A model generated the notes under the pieces. That model saw only the letters and a list, made by a program, of their open reading frames with translations. It had not been told where the DNA came from and did not search any database. The position numbers and the translations under genes are program-made. From Zygnema cylindricum (Eukaryota; Streptophyta; Zygnematophyceae; Zygnematales; Zygnemataceae), in assembly GCA_037447655.1 (NCBI GenBank), contig JBBHKE010003166.1, positions 133,635 through 197,634 on the forward strand: a stretch of DNA of 64,000 nt, read 5' to 3'. Of this stretch, positions 2,631 through 42,758 are shown in pieces (positions within the stretch are counted from its first letter, which is position 1; the number at the start of each line of letters is the position of its first letter).

Positions 2631-2800
2631 TGCAAGTTTGTGTCCCCCATTTGGACTGCAAAATTCAAGAAGTCTCTAGGTAGTTTTTCACTAACCCACT
2701 TTCAACTAGAACAACTGCTACCATTGAAGACAAATAAACAATCTGATTGCATCCCTATGTAGTTTGGACTCCTTTGAGTCCACAACAAAGAAAATCATTG
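2631..2800 (-). repeat. F1 5' LTR, U5-side part
   Basis: First segment of the F1 5' LTR, cut off from the rest (6951-7785) by N1. It aligns to the F2 LTR from 12205 and the H1 LTR from 41455, which share the block around ctaacccactttcaacta. The left boundary TG is set by the adjoining primer-binding site. Confidence 0.8.
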
Positions 2801-3900
2801 TGAAATTCTATGGGCACCATTGCCCACATAATTCAGAACCAAAAGAAGCTAATCTAGATAGTGCTGACTCCAAATTGATATAAACCCAAATATATGATCC
2901 CTTGACAATAAGAACTCCAATACACCTTCACCCCTGTGAAGAGAAGACCTGACCTTCTGTGTGCTCAGTTCCACCACAGAATGCAAAGCTTGAATATGTG
3001 TTTTAGACAATATTCCCCACTTTGACTTTCCCACTGAATAAGTGCCACCCTGGCACGCAAAGACTTTGACTAACTACACCCCTGTGTAGCTTGGATTCCC
3101 CTGTGTCCGCAGCAAAAAGAATCAGTGAATGTGCTCACCCGAGCATTAAGTTATGGCTGGTCAAAGATGACCTTTATAGTTACAAGCTCTCTTAGAGAGA
3201 GGTACCGAAATATCTCTAAGTCTTAGTTTGCCTACTCATGACTACCTACTACTAAACCCTAGTCCAATAGGAACACTATATAGTACAAGAAGGTATGATG
3301 GGCGATGTACTTATTGTACGGCCATTGTACAACATGGTCTACAAGGTGACATGTGCCAAATCGGGAGCCATGGTTCCTCCTCACATTTTCTCCGGTGTCA
3401 AATAATGTGGCGCCACGTGGCACCGCGTGACGCTATCCCCAAAGGCCGCCGAAAGCTTATTGCTGGTGGCGGCTGTAATGGTGGTCGTCCGATCAATTGT
3501 ATTTATACGACTTCGATTCGCTTCCATGCATCAATTGATTAATGCGCGTTTTCGTTAGTCTGCTGCGAATTAGTCCTTTGAATCAATAGGTAAATATGCG
3601 TGAAACATCTCACGTGTATCGTTTCGATAGTAACCTAATGGATAAGGCGTTGGTCTATTTAGTAGCCTACAGACCCCGGTTCAAATCCGGCCGGCAGCAG
3701 TTTTTTGCTAAAACTAGTAAAATACTCTCTAATTCCAACTGCCTCCTTCTAAATGATGCGGCAACCATGGCGTGCCTTTGGTCCTCTCTTTCTCTCTCTT
3801 TACATTCTAACTAAAATATAGAAGTGAACTATTAGTCACCTCTTTTCAACACTCTATTAATTTTTCCAATACAGACCTAGAAAATACATAAATTTCAACA
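2801..3900 (-). repeat. N1 3' LTR
   Basis: LTR of 1100 bp running on the plus strand from tgaaattc to tttcaaca. It is the direct repeat of 5854-6950 and homologous to the N2 LTR 16328-17428. It contains a CACGTG at 3414-3419 and a tRNA-like module on the opposite strand to the element. Confidence 0.92.
3624..3706 (+). other. tRNA-like module antisense to N1 (3' LTR)
   Basis: Resembles a tRNA-Arg gene. The A-box/D-arm part is CCTAATGGATAAGGCG. A 5-bp anticodon-type stem GGTCT/AGACC closes a 14-nt loop. A perfect B box GGTTCAAATCC lies at 3678-3688, and a T6 run at 3701-3706 fits a Pol III terminator. The acceptor stem does not pair, so this is not a working tRNA gene. Confidence 0.75.
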
Positions 3901-3917
3901 CTCCCCTTATTTTCTAG
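3901..3917 (-). other. N1 polypurine tract
   Basis: On the minus strand this is ctagaaaataaggggag abutting the 3' LTR, the plus-strand primer site for reverse transcription. The same motif precedes the N2, N3 and N4 3' LTRs. Confidence 0.8.
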
Positions 3918-3939
3918 TCTACCTTCTTTTCAACTCCCA

Positions 3940-5966
3940 CTAAACACAAACTTTCTTTTTCTTTTTCTTCTTTCTTTTCTCCTCATTAAACTCTAAGTGA
4001 ATACCCTTGTATTTAAAGAAGTGTATTAGATGAACCGAAATAAAAATTACATCACAAATTTTATTTTGCATGCCATTTTTCATAAATCCGAGAAAATACT
4101 TTATCCACCTCATTTCTTTTCCATCCACACTAAATCCAATTTCCCTCTTGCAATTTAAACAACCAGCCCCATCTCCAATCTGCAACACACACCCAGATGC
4201 TAACCCTCTTACAGGCACACCTTCATAAATGTCATCACTCCCATTAGTGATGTCAAACCCATTACCCCCCAAACTTTCCCGAAAAACAAGTGTCCCCACT
4301 AAGTTCCTCATAAGTTCTACATCTTCCGTACTCATATTTTTATCCATGATACTCACCTTATTTTCTGAACTTTCCTCACTCTCTCCCATGGAATTCTTTC
4401 CGTTATCACTTTCTATTTTTATCCCCAATAAATATTTCTCCTCCCCTAAACCTTTCATTAAAAATTCCTCTTATCCCCTGTTTTTTAAAACTCCCTCTAT
4501 ATTTACTTCTCCCCTTTCCTCGAAAGTCGTTGAAGTCTCCCTTTCCGACCAATTTTCTGTTTCCAAAAATCTATTAAATTATCCTCAATTTATTTATCTT
4601 TCCCTTTTTCAATTATAGATTCTAGAGCTGACTTTCTATACTCCTTGACATCCACATCATGTCTAACTCCTTTAAGTACCTCCCTTCCCTTTACTTCCTT
4701 TATACCTCCAAAAGCACATTGTTGCTTTCGTGTAATTTCTGTGTACTTCTCTCTCTTCTCCATTCTACCGATGTGAAGAAGCTCCAATATTTCTTCATCC
4801 TCTTTCTCCCCTTCCCCTTTTTCCTCCTCTTTCACATTCCAACTTCTAAGCTCTTCCAAAAAAGGGCATTCCTCCATATAATGACCCGGTTCCCTACAAA
4901 AGAAGCAAACGCCCTTTTTCAAAGCTCCCCTTTCTTTTCCTCTCCCTCTCTTTCCACCAAAGTTTTGATAAGGTTTACCTTCGTCTTTCTTCCTCTCATC
5001 ACACTTCCGCTCGTCACCGCCGTTCCTCTCATCACGCTTCCGCCAATCACCACCAGTTGTAAATGCATTCACTCTGTCACATCCCCTACGCAGCTCCAAA
5101 GAGCTTTCCCTCATAAGAATTATCCCCATGGTAAACCTCCAAGTCCATGAGGAGCCATCCATTGCATGCCTACGACAAATGATGTTTTCGTACTTATCTG
5201 GGAGTTTCATGAGTAGTGTATTAATCTTTCTCTCCTCAGATTCTAAATATCCCGCACTAGCAAGCTCAACATATAACGGAGCAATATCATAACAAAACTA
5301 TATCATGTTACCGCCTTTAAAAACATAGGCCTCTATTTCATGTTTTACTAACTGCTGCCTGTGAATAGTCTTACTCTTATAAATCTGCCTTAGTGTTTCT
5401 CATATTTCCAAAGACTTGGTAAGATTTAAAAGAGTGATAGCTATGGACTTAGACACATATCTAAGTATAAGATGTTTTGCTATACGGCTTTTATACTCAC
5501 AAATATTACTATCATTTTTTTCAGTTTTAGTTATAACCCCTCTAAGTGGAGCTGTGGCGAAGAGCATAGCTCCCATCACCATAATGGTCCCTTCATCTTT
5601 CTCCCCTATATCCCCATCCACGGAAAGGTTTTTCCTTTCACCTTCAATTGTATCTGAACTCCAGTTAATATTCTGGGCTGCCTCAGATGGTTCTCCATAG
5701 TAAGCTCCTCCAAAGCCAGGTGGCGGACATCTCACTTGTCCCGAAACAATTCCCCATAAGTGCTTCTCGAAAAGAAATCCCTCCATTGTAAAATCCCAAT
5801 AAGTGAAGTATGTTCCATCTAGCATAGGCACCCTAGATGGTGGGCCCATAACCTGAAATTTTATGGGCTCATTGCCCACAGAATTTGCAGATCCAAAAGA
5901 AGCTAATCTAGATAGTGCTGACTCCAAGTTGATATAAAACAAAATGAATGATCCTTTGATAATCAA
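3940..5966 (-). pseudogene. N1 Gag-type protein with pol remnant
   Basis: Broken copy of the 620-residue protein that is intact in N4. The blocks are 5966-5400 (VMGPPSRVPMLDG N-terminus, gag core), 5210-4590 (basic region and zinc knuckle CFFCREPGHYMEEC, CX2CX4HX4C) and 4458-3940 (C-terminal part). The last block contains GEEKYLLGIKIES, which matches the end of copia RT (LGEAKYILGIQVE), and VGTLVF...GDGAGC...CDVIFIS, which follows the RNase H pattern (VGSLIY...GDGACC...CDNQAAI) without the catalytic residues. It ends in a Lys-rich tail. The reading frame runs upstream into the 5' LTR. Confidence 0.85.
5839..5853 (-). other. N1 primer-binding site
   Basis: The minus strand reads GGTTATGGGCCCACC, an exact 15-nt complement of the initiator tRNA-Met anticodon arm. 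It directly follows the LTR and is in frame as V-M-G-P of Gag. Confidence 0.85.
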
Positions 5967-6950
5967 AAACCCAATACAACTTCACCCCTGTAAAGATAAG
6001 ACCTTGTGTGTGCTCAGTTCCACCACAGAATGCAAAGCTTGAATATGTGTTTTGGACAATATTCCCCACTTTGAATTTCCCACTGAATAAGTGCCACCCT
6101 GACACGCAAAAACCTCTAACCGACTACACCATTGTGTAGCTTAGACTCCCCTGAGTGTGTATCAAAAAGAATCACTGAATTTGCTCACCCGAGCATTAAG
6201 TTATGGCTGGTCAAAGATGACCTTTATAGTTACAAGCTCAATTAGAGAGAGGTACCGAAATATCACTAAGTCTTAGTCTTCCTACTCATGAAAACCTACT
6301 ACTAAACCAATTTCCAATAGGAACACTTTAAAGTACAAGACGGTACAATGGGCGATGTACTTATTGTACGGATATTGTACGACATGGTCTACAAGGTGAC
6401 ACTTGTCAAGTCGGGAGCCATGGTTCCTCCTCCCATCTTCTCGGGTGTCAAATAATGTGGCGCCACGTGGCACCGCGTTACGCTATCCCCAAAGGCCCCC
6501 GAAAGCTTTTTGCGGGTGGCGGCTGTAATGGTGGCCGCTTGATGAATTGTATTTATACGGCTTCGATTTGCTTCCATGCATCAATTGATTAATACGCGTT
6601 TTCTTTAGTGTGCTGCGAATTTGTCCTTTGAATCAATAGTTAAATATGCGTAAAGCGTCTCACGTGTATCGTTTCGATAGTAACTTAATGGATAAGGCGT
6701 TGATGTATTTAGTAGCATATAGACCCCGGTTCAAATCCGGCCAGCGGCACTATTTTGATAAAACTAATAAAATACTTTCTAATTCTTTCTGCCTTCTTCT
6801 ACATGATGCGGCAACCATAGCGTGCCTTTGGTCCTCTCTTTCTCTCTCTTTACATTCTAACTAAAATATAGAAGTAAACTATTAGTCACCTCTTTTCAAC
6901 ACTCTGTTTATATTTCCAATACAGACCTAAATTATTCATAAATTTCAACA
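5854..6950 (-). repeat. N1 5' LTR
   Basis: LTR of 1097 bp, direct repeat of 2801-3900. A TATA-like TATAAAG lies on the minus strand at about 6222-6228. The Gag frame is open through its U5 end. Confidence 0.92.
6674..6756 (+). other. tRNA-like module antisense to N1 (5' LTR)
   Basis: Second copy of the Arg-like module: A-box region TAACTTAATGGATAAGGCG at 6681, B box GGTTCAAATCC at 6728-6738 and TTTT at 6753-6756. Confidence 0.72.
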
Positions 6951-7785
6951 CATTGAAAACGCCCAACCATGCGATTAATTATCAAATGGCAAAGCTGCCA
7001 ATATTTATACAACTTGTTGGGAGAGAGGTGGCTACCTCCTCAATCCTCTAAGTCCTAAACCCCTCTCACAACCCTTATCTTATGATGTACGAACGAATTA
7101 GAAGACTGTACAATATAGAAAGGTACTAGGGCGGATGTACTTTCTGTACAGCCTGTGTACGACATGGCCATGGAGTGGACGTCTATCTCCTCCAAACTTG
7201 TCATCCCGCTCGCGGGATTCTTGCATTCCAATGATATCTTGCCACGTGTCGACAGGTCATGTCACATCTATAAAACAGCCAAGGCGGCTATTCTAGGATC
7301 TCGGCGATGATGAGGGCCGTCGGATCTAAACTCGCTTTTGATGCTAGTTGCTCAAAATGATAAATGTCCAGTACATTTGTTTCGTGCGTACTAAAAATCA
7401 ACTAGTTTATATGTTTTCAAATTATTATTCCGTTAATCGAATTGATGATCTAGCTAATGTTTAAATAACTATCAATCCCTATGTATCGTAACAAACTACT
7501 TCGACAGACCAGTAAGAGCTGACGGCTACACCTTGCCCTGCTAGTCGGAGGTTTGAGTCCTACCGGACTCAACCTTTTTGTTGAGAGTGAATTAGTACAC
7601 TTTTTAGTCCTGCCTATGGGGCTCTGGTAGCCATGGCTCCACCGCCATCTCTCTCCTTTAGTGACTACAACAAGTATGGGGGCTAGAGAGAGAAGGTGGA
7701 GACAGGTTGCCAGCGTTTTTTCTTTTAGCCTTTCTAATCAATTAAGACCTAGAAAATATCTCTCATAAATCTTGTGATTTCAACA
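6951..7785 (-). repeat. F1 5' LTR, U3-side part
   Basis: Continuation of 2631-2800 after removal of N1, giving a LTR of about 1.0 kb that ends in tttcaaca. It has a TATA-like element near 7000 (minus strand), a run of GTAC motifs around 7087-7160 and a CACGTG near 7240. The right flank is Gy1 RT, so F1 inserted into Gy1. Confidence 0.85.
7500..7579 (+). other. tRNA-like module antisense to F1
   Basis: An A-box-like stretch (agtaagagctgacggctac), a B box GGTTTGAGTCC at 7550-7560 and T5 at 7575-7579. The T-run sits between the arms of a small hairpin (actcaac/gttgag). Confidence 0.68.
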
Positions 7786-8232
7786 ATTCGTTCTTCATGT
7801 CTAGAGTAGAGTGGATTGTTACACCTGTAAGAGAGTTGGATATATCTTTAGGAGTTAGCATCGGATAACGGTCGAAGATGTTGGCCGTGTTCATCATGCA
7901 ATAATCTATACACATCCAAAAATCTTTAGTTTTCCTAGATGAGTCTTTCTTCGGACGGAGGACTGACAGAGAAGCGAACCCATGTAGTCTTTTAATTTCG
8001 TGAACCAACCCGGCTTTCACCAAAGTTTGGACTTTAGTGTGATGATTTCCTTCTCCTTGAAACTGAGAGGATAGTGCTTCTGCCCAACCGTAGCCGTCTC
8101 CTTGATCTTATCGATTAGAAAAGGGGTTCCTTTGTAGATGTCCACAACTTTTTTTGACCAGTAGAACACCAGCTTGTTTCTGGACAATAATTCGGAGAGC
8201 CTAGGCTTTTTGTGAGGGTCCAACTGCTCCAT
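7786..8232 (-). pseudogene. Gy1 reverse transcriptase, N-terminal part
   Basis: Two overlapping minus-strand frames (8232-8017, 8023-7786) make the first third of a gypsy RT. The motifs are VHEIKRLHGFASLSVLRPKKD, WMCIDYCMMN (family: CVDYRxLN), DRYPML and STLDMKNE (family: FSxLDxxxGY). The sequence stops at 7786 where the F1 LTR begins, so the YxDD active-site region is missing. One frameshift joins the two parts. Confidence 0.88.
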
Positions 8233-8559
8233 CTATTTTCCCCAGTTCAACAGCCTTCGAAGCTTCTAGTGGTCTTCCCCAAAGGTTCATGTCAAAATCC
8301 AATTCTACTTGTGGATTTACCTCTACCACTCCGTCTAGGACACTCGTGCTGACGAATTTCCCCTAAGATGCTGCCCTCTAAACCTCTACATCCCCCCATT
8401 GGAAGACCCAGCGGTTGTGAAATGTGATTTTTTCTCCTTTCTCTCCCCTCCTCAAGCTTCAAGGTTGCCGTCAATGCTAACAACTAAGAAGCTTGAAGGT
8501 AAATAGCTTTTGATTCTGGGGAGTTGGGACTTGTTTAGGCGAGTGCATACTTTAGAACC
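8233..8559 (-). other. Gy1 spacer between DNMT and RT
   Basis: About 330 bp with a short minus-strand frame (8292-8483) that I do not recognise. It probably encoded the linker between the methyltransferase and RT. No conserved motif is visible. Confidence 0.5.
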
Positions 8560-9545
8560 CACGTGATTGTATTTAGATCCATACTTTGCCCTATGAGGCT
8601 GCACCTTTGGAGGTCTAAATACTTAGTACAGCCGTGGTGTCATTTTAAAATCCCATTGCTTGTTCGTGTTCGGCGATTGTTGGTGTTGTTTAGATTCTTG
8701 CTTTGCTGTCAAAGATCATTCCTTCCGCTCCTTTTTGATATGCATGGCTGTGAGGGAAAGAAACCAATGTGGGAAGTGCCTTTTGTGGGGATAGTGGGTT
8801 GTTGCACCAAAAGTATGGATAGGTGTCGTGTTTTGTTACTAGGGTAGCCATCCTTCCTTCAACAAAGTATTTGTTGCACAGAATTTTGGGGGTTTGGTAT
8901 TTGTTTTTGTAACAATTTCTGGAGGACCATAAGCGAGAGAATATTGGTCCAATATGCTATAATTCGATGCGGTCGTGATTCCATTTGTGTTAAATCGATA
9001 ACTATGAGGGCTCTTAGAATCAGGGTCATCTTATTCCAGAAGTCAGCAACCAATTTCCTACGATATCCTCCAAGGTGTACATTCTCAAAAACGTACCCCA
9101 CTGGTGTGTTTTGGAGTCTTTGTATCCATGATATGAAATGGACCATTATAAAAAATGTTTTACTCCTACGGATCTGATGTCCTTTTCCATGTCGTGCAAA
9201 GAAGCATCGCTGACAAGGCCATCCTGCCACCACAGGATCTACTCTTCCCAAACTGGCCATATGAGGTGTGATGATGTTATCAACATTCTGGGGGAGACTC
9301 AGGTGAGCCTGGTATATTGCAAACATAGGAAGCTATTGAGGATATTGGTGGTGAAGTTGTTGAAGGCGGTGTTCACTTACTACCCTTGCTTTTGGTGATA
9401 TTTCCACGGCTACATATGATTCCACTTGCTAATCTGCTTTCTGAACGACTTCCAAATTAGAAGTGATTCTATAAAATAGTGATAAAATTCAAAGTCGTGA
9501 ATCGAAAAACTATTAATGACACCACTTCTATATTTAATTTCTTCT
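8560..9545 (-). pseudogene. Cytosine-5 DNA methyltransferase domain inside Gy1
   Basis: Degenerate minus-strand C5-MTase domain of about 330 codons. Motifs in order: YVAVEIS (9397-9417, motif II region, in frame with the following block apart from one stop); GWPCQ (9210-9224, motif IV with the catalytic Cys), preceded by GRVDPVVA and followed by ARHGKGHQ; GYVFENV (9078-9098, motif VI ENV); ESRPHRIIAYWTN (8941-8981, motif VIII, closer to the AHRxRxxWxN form of DNMT3/DRM-type enzymes than to the QTRxR form); then, after a frameshift, LPTLVSFPHSHAY (about 8740-8780), EHEQAMGF (about 8650-8675, like motif IX/X ExERAMGF) and MDLNTITW (8560-8582). The longest open block is 8859-9326. Motif I is only weakly visible near 9500. 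The family methylates cytosine in DNA; this copy is inactivated. Confidence 0.83.
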
Positions 9546-9785
9546 TGTGAGACTTAGTTTTTGAAACAATTGACTGGAGGTGTGAACTTGTCTCCTTTAG
9601 TCATGAAGCTAAAAAGGTCTGTTCCACTCCCCGCCAGAGTTTCGCCACCTGTAAAATCTGTCATTATATTCCTCTTCCCATCTCTTGGAAATAGGGAATT
9701 GCTAGATCTCCTTCGCTATATCTATAGAGCTAGCAAATAGTTCTTTCGGAGAAGAGGTAGCATATATTGGATAACAACGAGACAC
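9546..9785 (-). other. Gy1 spacer between protease and DNMT
   Basis: About 240 bp without a recognisable domain and with stops in the frames checked. It probably held the N-terminal part of the methyltransferase region or a linker. Confidence 0.4.
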
Positions 9786-10223
9786 CTAGACATTGGTCTT
9801 CCCCCTGTTTAATAAATCCAAAGGAACCACCACTTTGGTTCCTTTAGGATTTTCAGAGTCGCGAACGGTAGATTGTTCATTCCACACGCTTAGCCCCATA
9901 TTTAGCCGAGTCCATCTGGCCATTCCAACCAGAATTTCAAATTGAGTCCCTTCAACAACTAAGAATGGGAGCTCAATTTTCACCCGTTGGCCTGCGTCAT
10001 CTGAGAATTCAATTTCCATGGCCTTGATAACTCCATGGAGTAGTTGACTGCCGTTGCTTACCATGCTTAGGTAGATGTTGTTTTGGTAGATTTTAGGTCG
10101 GAGTTCTTCGGGCATTTTCTTTAAAGCGGAAGTGGTGATGAGGTTAAGGAGCGTTCCAGTGTCGACCACGATGTCTTGGTATCCTCTGTACCTGTTTAGT
10201 CTGAAGTTCCCAATTCGGTTCAC
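9786..10223 (-). pseudogene. Gy1 retroviral-type aspartic protease
   Basis: Open minus-strand stretch of 145 codons with the protease active-site motif VVDTGTLLNLI (family: xxDTGAxxSxI), then a core with LPFLVVEGTQFEILVGMARWTRLNM (family pattern: FLVVxxxxxxxILGxxWL). Its order before DNMT and RT supports a gypsy pol. It processed the polyprotein in the ancestor; upstream continuity to gag is broken. Confidence 0.78.
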
Positions 10224-11169
10224 TATAAGTTACACGGATACGGCATTGTAGTCCCTATCCACCAAAGGGGTTTTCGAATCTGTAGACATAAAGATTGTTG
10301 TCGGTGTAGTAGCATGGGCGACTCTCTCTTTTCTAGAGTATATTTCTTTTCCCAATGCTTGAATGAGGATTTCTTTGAGCATATTGTGGGAGGAGGCCAG
10401 AGTTTTGACGTGTGTGAGAGCTTAGGGTATGAGGTGCCAAACTAGCATGAGAGCATGCTTTAAAAAAGGAAGTTGAGCTATAGTTGAAGACGTGGGGGAA
10501 TTGTGTTCTTGCTGATCCTACTCCTTTTCTTCCTTTTCGTCAATTTTGAAGCTTGAATCCGATACGCATGGTGTCAAGAGAGTTTCATCGTCCGGGTGTT
10601 CTACCATGTAATTCACAATCTAGTCTTGATTGCTCAGATTTTCTCTTTCGAAGGACTCCTTCTCCTGCTGTTGTTTCTCACTCTGGAATTTTCGAAATCG
10701 GGAGGGAGTTTAGGTTTGGTAGGAAGAGATGGCGGGTGAGTTGATGTGATCTCCAGACCGACGTTGTTGTTTTTGATCTTTACCTGGGGAGTGAATGAAA
10801 GAGGTCCGCTGACCTTTCGGTTGTCATAACTTTGACCCATTTTGTGCTTGCCATTTCTTTGCTCGGAGGTAGAATTTCAGAGTTGTCGTCTGCTATATCC
10901 CACCCAAACATTCCAAGCTCCGGACAGGAAAGTTCGTCCATGGTGGGCATTTGGGGGTTCTAAATCCCAACCCATTAAGTCATCATCGTTAGCACCATCT
11001 GTGCATTAAAGTTCAAGCTCTGCAAGCTTTTGTAACAACTCCTATTTCTATTTCTTGAATCTTTGTGCTGCACTGAGAGGTGTAGCCCGAGATGAAGATC
11101 CAAAGAGCATAGCCTCCGATAAAGCAGCCATTGTGGCTAGTGCGGCCATTACGGCCAGCTCTTGACTCT
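10224..11169 (-). other. Gy1 gag-protease connecting region
   Basis: Nearly 950 bp between the protease and the zinc-knuckle block. Short minus-strand frames (for example 10634-10840) show no recognisable domain and are probably decayed polyprotein. I see no RNA gene or separate element here. Confidence 0.4.
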
Positions 11170-12204
11170 TGTGTTAGATATTGATCTCCGGTGTAAACTT
11201 TGTCGGAGTAACCGGGGCTCGTTTTGGTTCCTCTTGGGAAGGCAAACCTCTGCGACCCCAAAGGTAAAGAAGTTGAAGTGGGAGCGGGTTTATGGTAGTT
11301 TCTCCTTCTCTAGTGAATAGAGCAAACTGCATCATTTCCTTAAAGACCAAATTCTTTTGAAAGCACTTCCCTTCCTTATGCCCCACAAAACCACAAGCTT
11401 TGCATTATGAGCCTTACGGTGGTATATTTGCTCTTCATCTCATTGGATGTTTGGTTGTCATCAAACTTGGGAAGTTTAATTTGTCATAATTGAGTTTGGG
11501 ACATTTTAGATGTTTCGCCCCGGGGAGTTCGATAGTATGTGTCCTTGGTCACTGAAGTTTTCTTATCCCTGGTTTCTCCTTTGAGCCGTTCTTGCTGCCT
11601 TCGAGTCCCTTCAGCCTTTTCTTTTTCCCATTCCTTAAGTTTTAGAGCTAGTTCTGGATTAAGCTTCAGGGTGCATTGCTTCCACCTATGACAAGTTTGT
11701 TGAAAATTTTGGCAATCATAAAAGAAAACTCGTTCGTCAGCCTTCATTGCTGGTTCAGACCTGTTGTCAATTACATGTTTCCCATTAAACTTCTATAAAG
11801 CTTGAATTTGTGTCTTTTCCTCTTCATTCAAGGAGGTCTCACCATCATACTGTGCAAAATTTGCACAGGACTTGCGTGTCACATGGCCTCACTGTGGATG
11901 AAGTGGTTGTATAACTTCATAACAACCAACGAAATATCTTTGGCAAGGGATTAATGTCTTAAATTTCTTGTCCGACTGTCCGACAATCCAATTATCTACA
12001 AAAGTTTACTTTGTCTGCCAAAATGAATTACAGACAGTGATGAAAATGGTTGCCATGGTCGGAGGGTCAATAGTCAACAGCTTTGTTTTGTGACAGAGGC
12101 TAGAAAGTTTATTGAAAAGAGTCTTTGGGGTTTCGTTCTTCAAACACTAGAATTTAGTGAATTCCTTGATGGCGGACTCGTTTCTCTCTGTGTATAAGAG
12201 TCTC
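11170..12204 (-). pseudogene. Gy1 gag-like region with CCHC knuckle
   Basis: Decayed Gag. The start (near 12170-11890) reads in broken frames like a retrotransposon gag core: ETPKTLFNKLSSLCHKTKLL, then DPPTMATIFI and FWQTK. A charged block at 11484-11747 follows. A complete zinc knuckle CKACGFVGHKEGKC (CX2CX4HX4C) is encoded at 11363-11404. The right end is cut by the F2 LTR, so the N-terminus and the Gy1 LTR are missing. Confidence 0.62.
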
Positions 12205-13202
12205 TACAATTCTGTGTCCCCAATTTGACCACAATTGAGTAAGCTTCCAGGTATTTTTTCACTAACCCACTTTCAACTAGAACAACTACCACCCAAACAA
12301 GCAAATAGACATTGTGATTTCACCTTTATGCAGTGTGGACTCCAGTGAGTCCACAGCAAAAAGTATCACCGAAAACACCCAACCAAGCGATTAGTTACCA
12401 ACTGGCAAAGAAACCTATATTTATACAAGCTTGCTGGGAGAGAGGCGGCTACCTCCTCAATCCTCTAAGTCATAAAGCCCTCTCACAACCCTTATCTACT
12501 GATGTACAAACCAATCAAAAGAGTGTAGAGTACAGAAAGGTACTAAGGCCGATGTACTTTCTGAACAGCTTCTGTACGACAAAGCCATGGAGTGGACGTT
12601 TGTCTTCTTCAGACTAGTCCTTATGCTACCTGGGATTCCAGCTTCCCAAATATATCTCGCCACGTATTGCCAGGTCATGTCACGTTTGAAAATCGCCAAA
12701 TTTGCTATTCTGGGATCTCGGCGATTATACGGGCCGTCTGATCCAAACTGGCTTTTAATGCTCGCCGTTAAAAAAAAATGTCTAGTTCATTTGTTTCGTG
12801 CGTACTATAAAATCCAACTGGTTTTTATGTCTTACAATTATAATTTTGTTAATTGAATTAATCCTCTAGTTATTGTTTAAATAGCAATCACACCCTATAT
12901 ATCCTAACGGACTACTATGACAGACTCTTAAGGACAGACTACTACGCCTCACCTTGCCAATCTAAGGTTTGAGTCCTACCAGACTCAACCTTTTTGGTTG
13001 AGAGTGACTTAGGTCACTCTTTAGCCCTACCTAACGAGCTAAAGCAACCATGGCTCCACAAACCTCTCTCTCAATGAGTGACTACAACGTGTATAGGGGT
13101 TAGAGAGAGAAGGTGGAGGCACGTTGTCTGTGCTTTTTCTTTTAGCTAATTTAACTAATTAAGACCTAGAATATAACTCCCCTAAATCTAGTGATTTGAA
13201 CA
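12205..13202 (-). repeat. F2 3' LTR
   Basis: LTR of 998 bp homologous to the F1 5' LTR and the H1 LTR, ending in gatttgaaca. The left terminus has TA in place of TG. TATA-like atttatacaag lies near 12418 (minus strand), with GTAC motifs around 12500-12580. Confidence 0.82.
12911..12995 (+). other. tRNA-like module antisense to F2
   Basis: B box GGTTTGAGTCC at 12966-12976, T5 at 12991-12995, then a hairpin arm ggttgag. The A-box region is more decayed than in F1. Confidence 0.62.
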
Positions 13203-41746: not shown

Positions 41747-42758
41747 CGTTGAAATTATTAGATTTATATGGTATTTTATAGGTCTTTATAGTTCGTTACA
41801 AATAGGAAAAGCAAAAGGTAGACAGCCTACCTCCACCTCCTCTCTCTCTACCCACCATACTTGTTGTAGTCACATAGGGATAAAGAGGGTGGTTGAGCCA
41901 TGGTTGTCTTAGCTCAGCAGGCAAAACTAAAGAGTGACTTATATCACTCTCAACAAAAGGTTGAGTCCGGGAAGACTCGAACCTCTGATCGGTAGAGCGC
42001 AGCGTAGCTGTTAGCTCTAACCAGTCTGTTGCAAAAGTGCGTTAGGATACTTTAGGTTTGATAATTATTTAAAAAGTGTTAAAACCAGAAATTCGATTAA
42101 TGGAATGACGAACAAAAAGACATAGAACGAAGCGTTATATAGTAAGAACATTATCGCGAAAAAAACAAATGAATCGGACATTTGTTTCGACGGCTGTCAA
42201 TTAATCTCGGATCTAATCCGACGGCGTATATCACTGCCGAGATCGCAAAATGGTCACTTTAGCGTTTATGGACGTGGAATGACGTGGCACCATGAGGAGG
42301 GATGAAATTTGGTTGCACGAATTCCGAGGAACTTAAGGACGAGTTAAAAGTGGACACGCGTCTACTCAATGGCCTTGCTATACACACGCCGTACATAAAG
42401 TTCATCGGCCGTAATACCTTTCTGTACCCTACATTCATTTGGTTGGTTCGTACGTCAGTAGATAGGGGTTCTGAGAGGGGTTTAAGACTTAAAGATTTTG
42501 GTAGGTAGTGACCTCTCTCCCTTTCAGAGTTTGCATAAACTTGGTATCTTTGCCACCTTATAATTTTTAATCGGCTGGTTAGCCGTTTTCAATGATTTTT
42601 TTTGCTACAGACTCAGAGAAGTGCAGCCTACAAAAGGGTGCAGTCAAACAGTCAATTTGCATTCTTGGGCAGTAATGGTTGAAGCTTGAAATGAGTAAGT
42701 TAAAAACTATCTAGAGGCTTTCTGAATTATATAGTCCAATAGAGGACATAGAATTACA
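41747..42758 (+). repeat. F3 5' LTR
   Basis: LTR of 1012 bp starting cgttgaaattattag (TG decayed to CG) and ending gaattaca. Direct repeat of 62382-63395. It carries GTAC motifs near 42391-42453 and TATA-like sequence upstream of the U5 end. Confidence 0.9.
41955..42030 (-). other. tRNA-like module antisense to F3 (5' LTR)
   Basis: On the minus strand: A-box-like ctggttagagctaacag (42008-42024), B box GGTTCGAGTCT (41973-41983) and TTTT at 41955-41958. Confidence 0.68.

Follow-up and report, generated by a model that had tools for sequence, protein, structure and literature searches.

A gypsy retrotransposon fragment with a dead DNMT3-like methyltransferase domain in the genome of Zygnema cylindricum

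The stretch of Zygnema cylindricum DNA analysed here (the window, 64,000 nucleotides) contains what we read as a dead fragment of a gypsy retrotransposon whose pol carried a DNMT3-type cytosine methyltransferase between its protease and its reverse transcriptase (RT). We put the probability of this reading at roughly 0.9, and we include in it a scheme in which such elements would methylate their own cDNA and insert it with the help of a PHD finger. Cytosine methylation is normally directed at transposons. With an abundant family of DNMT3-carrying elements, of which at least one insertion is recent, one can ask within a single genome, by comparison with DNMT-less elements, why a parasite would methylate itself. 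A histone reader encoded in the same polyprotein hints that insertion may be coupled to methylation. It also follows that a count of DNMT or PHD genes in an algal genome of this sort may in fact count transposons.

The methyltransferase domain and its gypsy surroundings

The methyltransferase domain lies on the minus strand at 8499-9534. In a frameshift-tolerant alignment, 9534-8499 matched a relative with an open frame elsewhere in this genome at 217 of 342 residues, with a score of 1009 and at the cost of six stop codons and three frameshifts, so that the window copy has no intact open reading frame for a C5 methyltransferase. The 21 controls scored far lower, with 26-40 in 12 shuffles of the stretch in 2-base blocks and 27-40 in nine other stretches of the window. 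Because of this match, its stops and frameshifts and the distance to the controls, we regard the domain as real but dead, as had been proposed in a preliminary description which noticed a degenerate C5 methyltransferase from the letters alone. All four motifs quoted there are found in the minus-strand translation, GWPCQ, FENV and SRPHRIIAYWTN directly and EHEQAMGF in another frame. The profile search suggested there gave a divided answer: the domain is recovered by frameshift-tolerant comparison with its relative, but its longest open piece (8859-9332, 157 amino acids) by itself matches Pfam DNA_methylase weakly and below the cut-off (E 0.021). The same ORF falls below the cut-off of NCBIfam dcm (E 1.7e-5), its best match in the PDB is a weak one to DNMT3B (E 0.059), and the window copy is absent from the 123 places listed by a genome-wide search with Pfam PF00145.

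The domain is embedded in a Ty3/gypsy-derived fragment (7786-12204, minus strand) that runs from the middle of gag to just inside the RT. This fragment was delimited by homology to two better-kept copies, L039 on contig C1374 and L042, and both of its edges are sharp in genome-wide junction searches. From upstream to downstream on the minus strand it incorporates a gag remnant ORF (11484-11792), which falls in a part alignable with the gag frame of L039; an ORF for a retroviral-type aspartic protease (9786-10229), matched at the DNA level by L042 and partly by L039, where the relative has its own ORF; the methyltransferase domain; and the N-terminal part of a gypsy RT with its 3' end cut off (7786-8232, the upper limit being that of the preliminary description, with an open piece at 7763-8107). 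Neither ORF is recognised by Pfam on its own: the protease ORF has no significant match (Asp_protease_2, E 0.14), the corresponding ORF of L039 likewise remains below the cut-off (E 2.1e-4), and the RT ORF has no significant match. Both were thus identified through their relatives. Specifically, 8035-7790 is 68% identical over 82 amino acids to the RT of L039, and the DNA of 10448-7785 is 66% like the copy on C1374. On these comparisons the methyltransferase (9534-8499) sits between the protease and a Ty3/gypsy RT on the same strand, which bears out the placement first described.

Immediately downstream, the RT fragment abuts a copia-type long terminal repeat that we call LTR_E (6955-7785, minus strand). 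It is a direct repeat of a second LTR_E upstream (12371-13202, minus strand), the two being 78.6-80% identical, and between the upstream LTR and the gypsy gag lies a 166-bp copia leader and gag start (12205-12370, minus strand; 78% identical to 2633-2797) that is fused straight to gag. The pair is assigned to copia because a similar leader and the start of a copia gag come after a related LTR at 41748-42594. For the same reason, and since the terminal repeats of the better-kept copies on C1344 and C1374 are different ones, we rejected the possibility that these LTRs are the gypsy element's own. DIRS-like repeats of the kind described below are absent from the window fragment. By its homologies, then, the window copy is a truncated pseudogene fragment hemmed in by copia LTRs.

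Among the 41 matches listed by a genome-wide DNA search across the RT-LTR joint, two contain it whole (the window itself and C923:229899-230089), and the other 39 match the LTR half only. These two loci resemble each other to about the same degree in their gypsy DNA (84.4%) and in their LTR (83.9%), and for this reason their joint seems to be common by descent. The corresponding search across the leader-gag joint found it whole at one of 40 listed places (37 matched the leader half only and two the gag half), and the homology at C923 ends before the position of this joint. Initially we preferred to read the window copy as a mobile copia-gypsy chimera, in which the copia interior had been swapped by template switching for a gypsy piece reaching from gag to RT. 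It would account for the two sharp joints (copia leader to gypsy gag, gypsy RT to copia LTR) and for the recurrence of one of them at C923 with similar identities in both parts, and complex LTR insertions through template switching are described for Triticeae in the accessible text of PMC1950507. It is weakened by the distances between the LTRs: the two in the window (78.6%) are further apart than the window 3' LTR is from that at C923 (83.9%), unlike a pair made in one insertion, and the leader-gag joint is intact at one listed place alone. These distances argue for an LTR that entered the gypsy RT in an ancestor and for an upstream joint that formed separately, and against a mobile element with paired LTRs. 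We consider the chimera rather unlikely, and continue with a gypsy fragment caught between copia LTRs.

Elsewhere in the window, at about 2800-6951 (minus strand), copia-type elements stand head-to-tail, apparently sharing LTRs whose copies are about 90% alike. A tRNA-like stretch, GATAGTAACCTAATGGATAAGG ... GGTTCAAATCC, lies at about 3610-3705 within the repeated LTR; ARAGORN called no tRNA anywhere in the window.

Better-kept relatives in the same genome

The genome searched comprises 352.8 Mb in 2689 contigs. With Pfam PF00145, 123 of 782 candidates were scored and all 123 exceeded the cut-off, including one probable host exon on contig C514. With the window ORF as query, the best 150 of 1202 candidates were scored, the window itself among them, and the weakest listed had an E-value of 1.1e-45. 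The two lists overlap, and copy numbers may be inflated because several pairs of contigs have identical scores (for example C633/C1042, C746/C1214, C507/C1662 and C2179/C2675), as if they were separately assembled haplotypes or recent duplicates. Judged by these matches, the same genome holds many relatives of the window element. An RT match was found within about 3.4 kb at 33 of 38 loci from the two methyltransferase searches, the window locus counted and any strand relation accepted; the five loci without one are L001, L007, L021, L033 and L034. The methyltransferase of L007, on C514, looks like a host exon of what we take to be a chromomethylase. At L043, an exon at about 1840-2100 resembles what is presumably a plant chromomethylase (GGPPCQGASGHNRFR) and is likely to belong to a host DNMT gene.

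We name three families by their best-kept copies: A by L039 (C1374), B by L040 (C1344) and C by L042, which is nearest to the window. L039 and L040 were scanned with Pfam, and at both of them DNMT, RT, RNase H, integrase and PHD follow one another in a single open frame. L039 has a 1520-amino-acid pol frame with DNA_methylase, RVT_1, RNase H, H2C2 and rve and a weak PHD match at its C-terminus (E 0.0044, below the Pfam cut-off), together with a gag frame without Pfam matches and a separate protease ORF. L040 has one frame of 2395 amino acids with the same five domains and a PHD finger (E 1.5e-9), in addition to weak matches to a CCHC knuckle and a protease; compared with solved PHD fingers, that of L040 is most like PHF12 (E 5.8e-17). 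The DNMT domain thus lies within the pol frame of both, and a gypsy-type RT, RNase H and DDE integrase occur together in one pol, of which the window copy keeps part of the RT only. The rve core was the only integrase found in the two frames, and Pfam found no tyrosine recombinase in either. The proposal that the enzyme was part of the element is supported by these frames, which run from DNMT to integrase, and by the adjacency of an RT at 33 of 38 loci. The genome, whose search for intact copies was suggested there, does hold better-kept ones. The opposite pattern, in which relatives lack the domain and a host methyltransferase gene matches it exactly, was not seen among the loci gathered through the methyltransferase searches.

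The most complete relative examined is the 10,641-bp copy on C1344, in which the order is A-gag-PR-DNMT-RT-RNaseH-IN-PHD-B-A-B, where A and B here denote repeats of 931 bp and about 243 bp. Its two A repeats are identical, which indicates at least one recent insertion. It is flanked on both sides by TTGG, probably a 4-bp target-site duplication; the flank match is known from one copy and has a chance expectation of 1 in 256. The B-A joint of C1344 reads GACA-GC-TGTC, and the same ten bases are found at the B-A joint of C1374; these are the only two occurrences among loci L001-L050, and there is none in the window. The copy on C1374 has the order A, coding region, B, about 3.7 kb of other sequence and then B-A-part of B, and no matching flanks were found at those of its ends that were examined. 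A third copy on C161, nearest to the lineage of the window, shows a single A-like and a single B-like stretch, neither of them repeated within 19.3 kb. The DIRS-like layout A-coding-B-A-B is thus complete in one of three copies examined (C1344), rearranged in C1374 and incomplete in C161.

Between families A and B, identity is 42% in the DNMT and 47% from RT to PHD, and the two parts seem to have travelled together, which suggests that both families stem from one old capture of a DNMT. Families A and C, compared between L039 and L042, are 93% identical in the RT protein and about 73% in the DNMT, so the DNMT either changes faster or was exchanged between lineages.

The enzyme, its possible role and its origin

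We propose the following way of working. The polyprotein would be made and then cut, and the RT would produce a cDNA, which the DNMT would methylate, probably at CG, before or at insertion. The methylated cDNA could then pass as host DNA or be given a chosen chromatin state, and the integrase would insert it, guided by a PHD finger that may read histone H3. Self-methylation by the element is what we infer; what was observed is the order of the domains, the split repeats, the matching flank of one copy, conserved catalytic residues and low dN/dS.

The alternative to cDNA methylation is that the DNMT travels as a passenger or decoy and is retained for some other function, for instance binding RNA or DNA in the particle. 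It would fit the silence of the Klebsormidium enzyme in yeast reported in the main text of PMC5890265, and also motif IV of family B, which in L040 (DNMT at 4286-5335) reads WECQ and not PCQ, with SECQ in the related L041. Against it, six aligned copies all share the cysteine of motif IV, the EN of motif VI and parts of motif I, and the AHR-x-R motif of DNMT3A is present in five of six element sequences, the sixth reading AFR (the window copy reads PHR-x-I at this site). The families moreover have low dN/dS, calculated with stop codons skipped: a median of 0.21 in family C (range 0.09-0.61, 55 pairs), where the 11 loci with 0-3 stops were picked from the 29 nearest that family and some few-stop loci, e.g., L025, L034 and L014, were left out; 0.25 in family A (three pairs); and 0.08 in family B (three pairs, two of them with saturated dS). 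We hold a passenger or decoy to be unlikely and favour an enzyme that would act on the element's cDNA.

The decay of CG in the window copy itself is unremarkable. CG has changed to TG or CA at four of 21 sites, as against a change to T at 29 of 184 non-CG C sites, and since both strands were counted for CG the comparison favours CG. The ratio of observed to expected CpG stands at 0.57 for the gypsy-derived DNA and at 0.60 for the window as a whole, compared with 0.67-0.93 for four better-kept copies. A slight loss of CG is possible on these figures, but there is no clear sign that old copies were heavily methylated at CG.

As to the type of enzyme, a DNMT profile built from six copies and compared with the PDB, a comparison that reaches only enzymes with solved structures, matched DNMT3A (3e-17) and DNMT3B (1.1e-14) ahead of HhaI (7.7e-7) and 4onj (5.6e-6), which is named DNA methyltransferase in the PDB and which we take to be plant DRM. 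The order of motifs is canonical and linear, with the motif I region, IV, VI, VIII and a C-terminal ERE..F block, and it is not rearranged, unlike DRM. On profile and motifs the element enzyme is DNMT3-like, lying nearer to DNMT3 than to the other C5 methyltransferases with solved structures. A tree of 20 sequences grouped the elements with DNMT3A at 0.999. This tree lacks the DNMT1, CMT and DRM that the preliminary description wanted included and has viral enzymes chosen by short peptide patterns, and so separates DNMT3 from those viral enzymes only.

Viral enzymes matter here because a phage or a bacterium, instead of a host Dnmt3, might be the source of the methyltransferase. Relatives that are 28-40% identical are encoded on 26 IMG/VR contigs matching one of two short peptide patterns, and for family B alone the best viral-contig enzyme (42.2 bits) ties with DNMT3A (42.7 bits). 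For family A alone, by contrast, DNMT3A is well ahead (55.3 against 40.5 bits), and AHR-x-R is missing from all 12 viral-contig enzymes readable at that site, a thirteenth being gapped. A bacterial source was set aside after one GTDB scan, in which 196 pattern stretches contained no relative. A phage or bacterial origin appears to us decidedly improbable beside a DNMT3-type one. That the domain belongs to a neighbouring host gene, or is a chance match of motifs unrelated to the element, has the sub-threshold Pfam score of the window ORF to recommend it and virtually no probability left, the host gene being ruled out by the open pol frames of L039 and L040 together with the 33 of 38 loci where an RT adjoins the enzyme, and chance by controls of 26-40 against 1009.

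Comparison with known elements

A Dnmt3 in the pol of a gypsy element with DIRS-like repeats has already been reported for Klebsormidium nitens. The accessible text of that study describes KnitGypsy-Dnmt3 with a Ka/Ks below 0.2 and a DIRS-type arrangement of repeats (de Mendoza et al., 2018; PMC5890265). The Zygnema elements share with it the gypsy domain set, a Dnmt3-related enzyme in the pol ORF, low dN/dS and DIRS-like repeats; this likeness is one of layout and not of sequence comparison, and in that sense the link to published charophyte elements suspected at the outset holds. They differ in forming two lineages 42% alike in the DNMT and in carrying a C-terminal PHD finger, which are the new features here, and the copy number in the present genome is high. 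PHD is not mentioned in the main text of PMC5890265, figure 4c and the supplements lying outside that scope. In the same text, no methylation by the KnitGypsy DNMT could be detected in yeast, a result its authors call inconclusive, and dinoflagellate DIRS enzymes methylated CG in yeast. The accessible parts of two further articles state that retrotransposon DNMT3s of streptophytes and dinoflagellates were reported earlier (a 2025 survey, PMC12344493) and that such elements are absent from land plants (a 2019 article, PMC6338049).

Among the dinoflagellate elements in the text of PMC5890265, SymbioDIRS-Dnmt3 and SymbioLINE-Dnmt are likewise retrotransposons bearing a DNMT, and SymbioDIRS is also of Dnmt3 type with split repeats, but they use a tyrosine recombinase or LINE machinery, whereas the elements described here have a gypsy DDE integrase. 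From the sources as far as accessible, three other groups resemble them at the reader end. Chromoviruses are gypsy elements with a histone-reader domain after the integrase, but there it is a chromodomain, in place of the PHD finger and the methyltransferase in pol found here. The Ginger1 transposase combines a PHD finger with a gypsy-like integrase but belongs to a DNA transposon (PMC2836005), and CR1-like elements have a PHD finger on a transposon protein but are non-LTR elements (cited in PMC5408684). The accessible parts of these two articles mention no methyltransferase for either, and a literature search over partly accessible sources, with subscription journals and preprints mostly outside its scope, found no report of a gypsy element that combines a DNMT with a PHD finger.

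According to the accessible text of a preprint on Zygnema cf. cylindricum SAG 698-1a_XF, a PHD 'transcription factor' family is at least nine times larger there than in sister species (PMC9915684); the string PHD is not found in the accessible main text of the published version (PMC11096116). The C-terminal PHD fingers of the L039 and L040 pol frames may explain this expansion. A wider and more tentative picture, which we think possible although the odds are against it as a whole, is that of a reader-writer retroelement in which the PHD finger on the integrase and a de novo DNMT would choose the chromatin and write 5mC on the landing copy. In it a single capture of the enzyme would predate the split of families A and B, and possibly also the divergence of Klebsormidiales and Zygnematophyceae, the palindromic B-A joint GACA-GC-TGTC would be the template for the ends used by the DDE integrase, and the PHD expansion of SAG 698-1a would consist of these transposons.

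Finally, the nearest solved relatives of the element enzyme are animal DNMT3A and DNMT3B. DNMT3 combines a PHD-like ADD reader with a methyltransferase, whereas in the elements described here reader and writer lie at opposite parts of a retroelement polyprotein.
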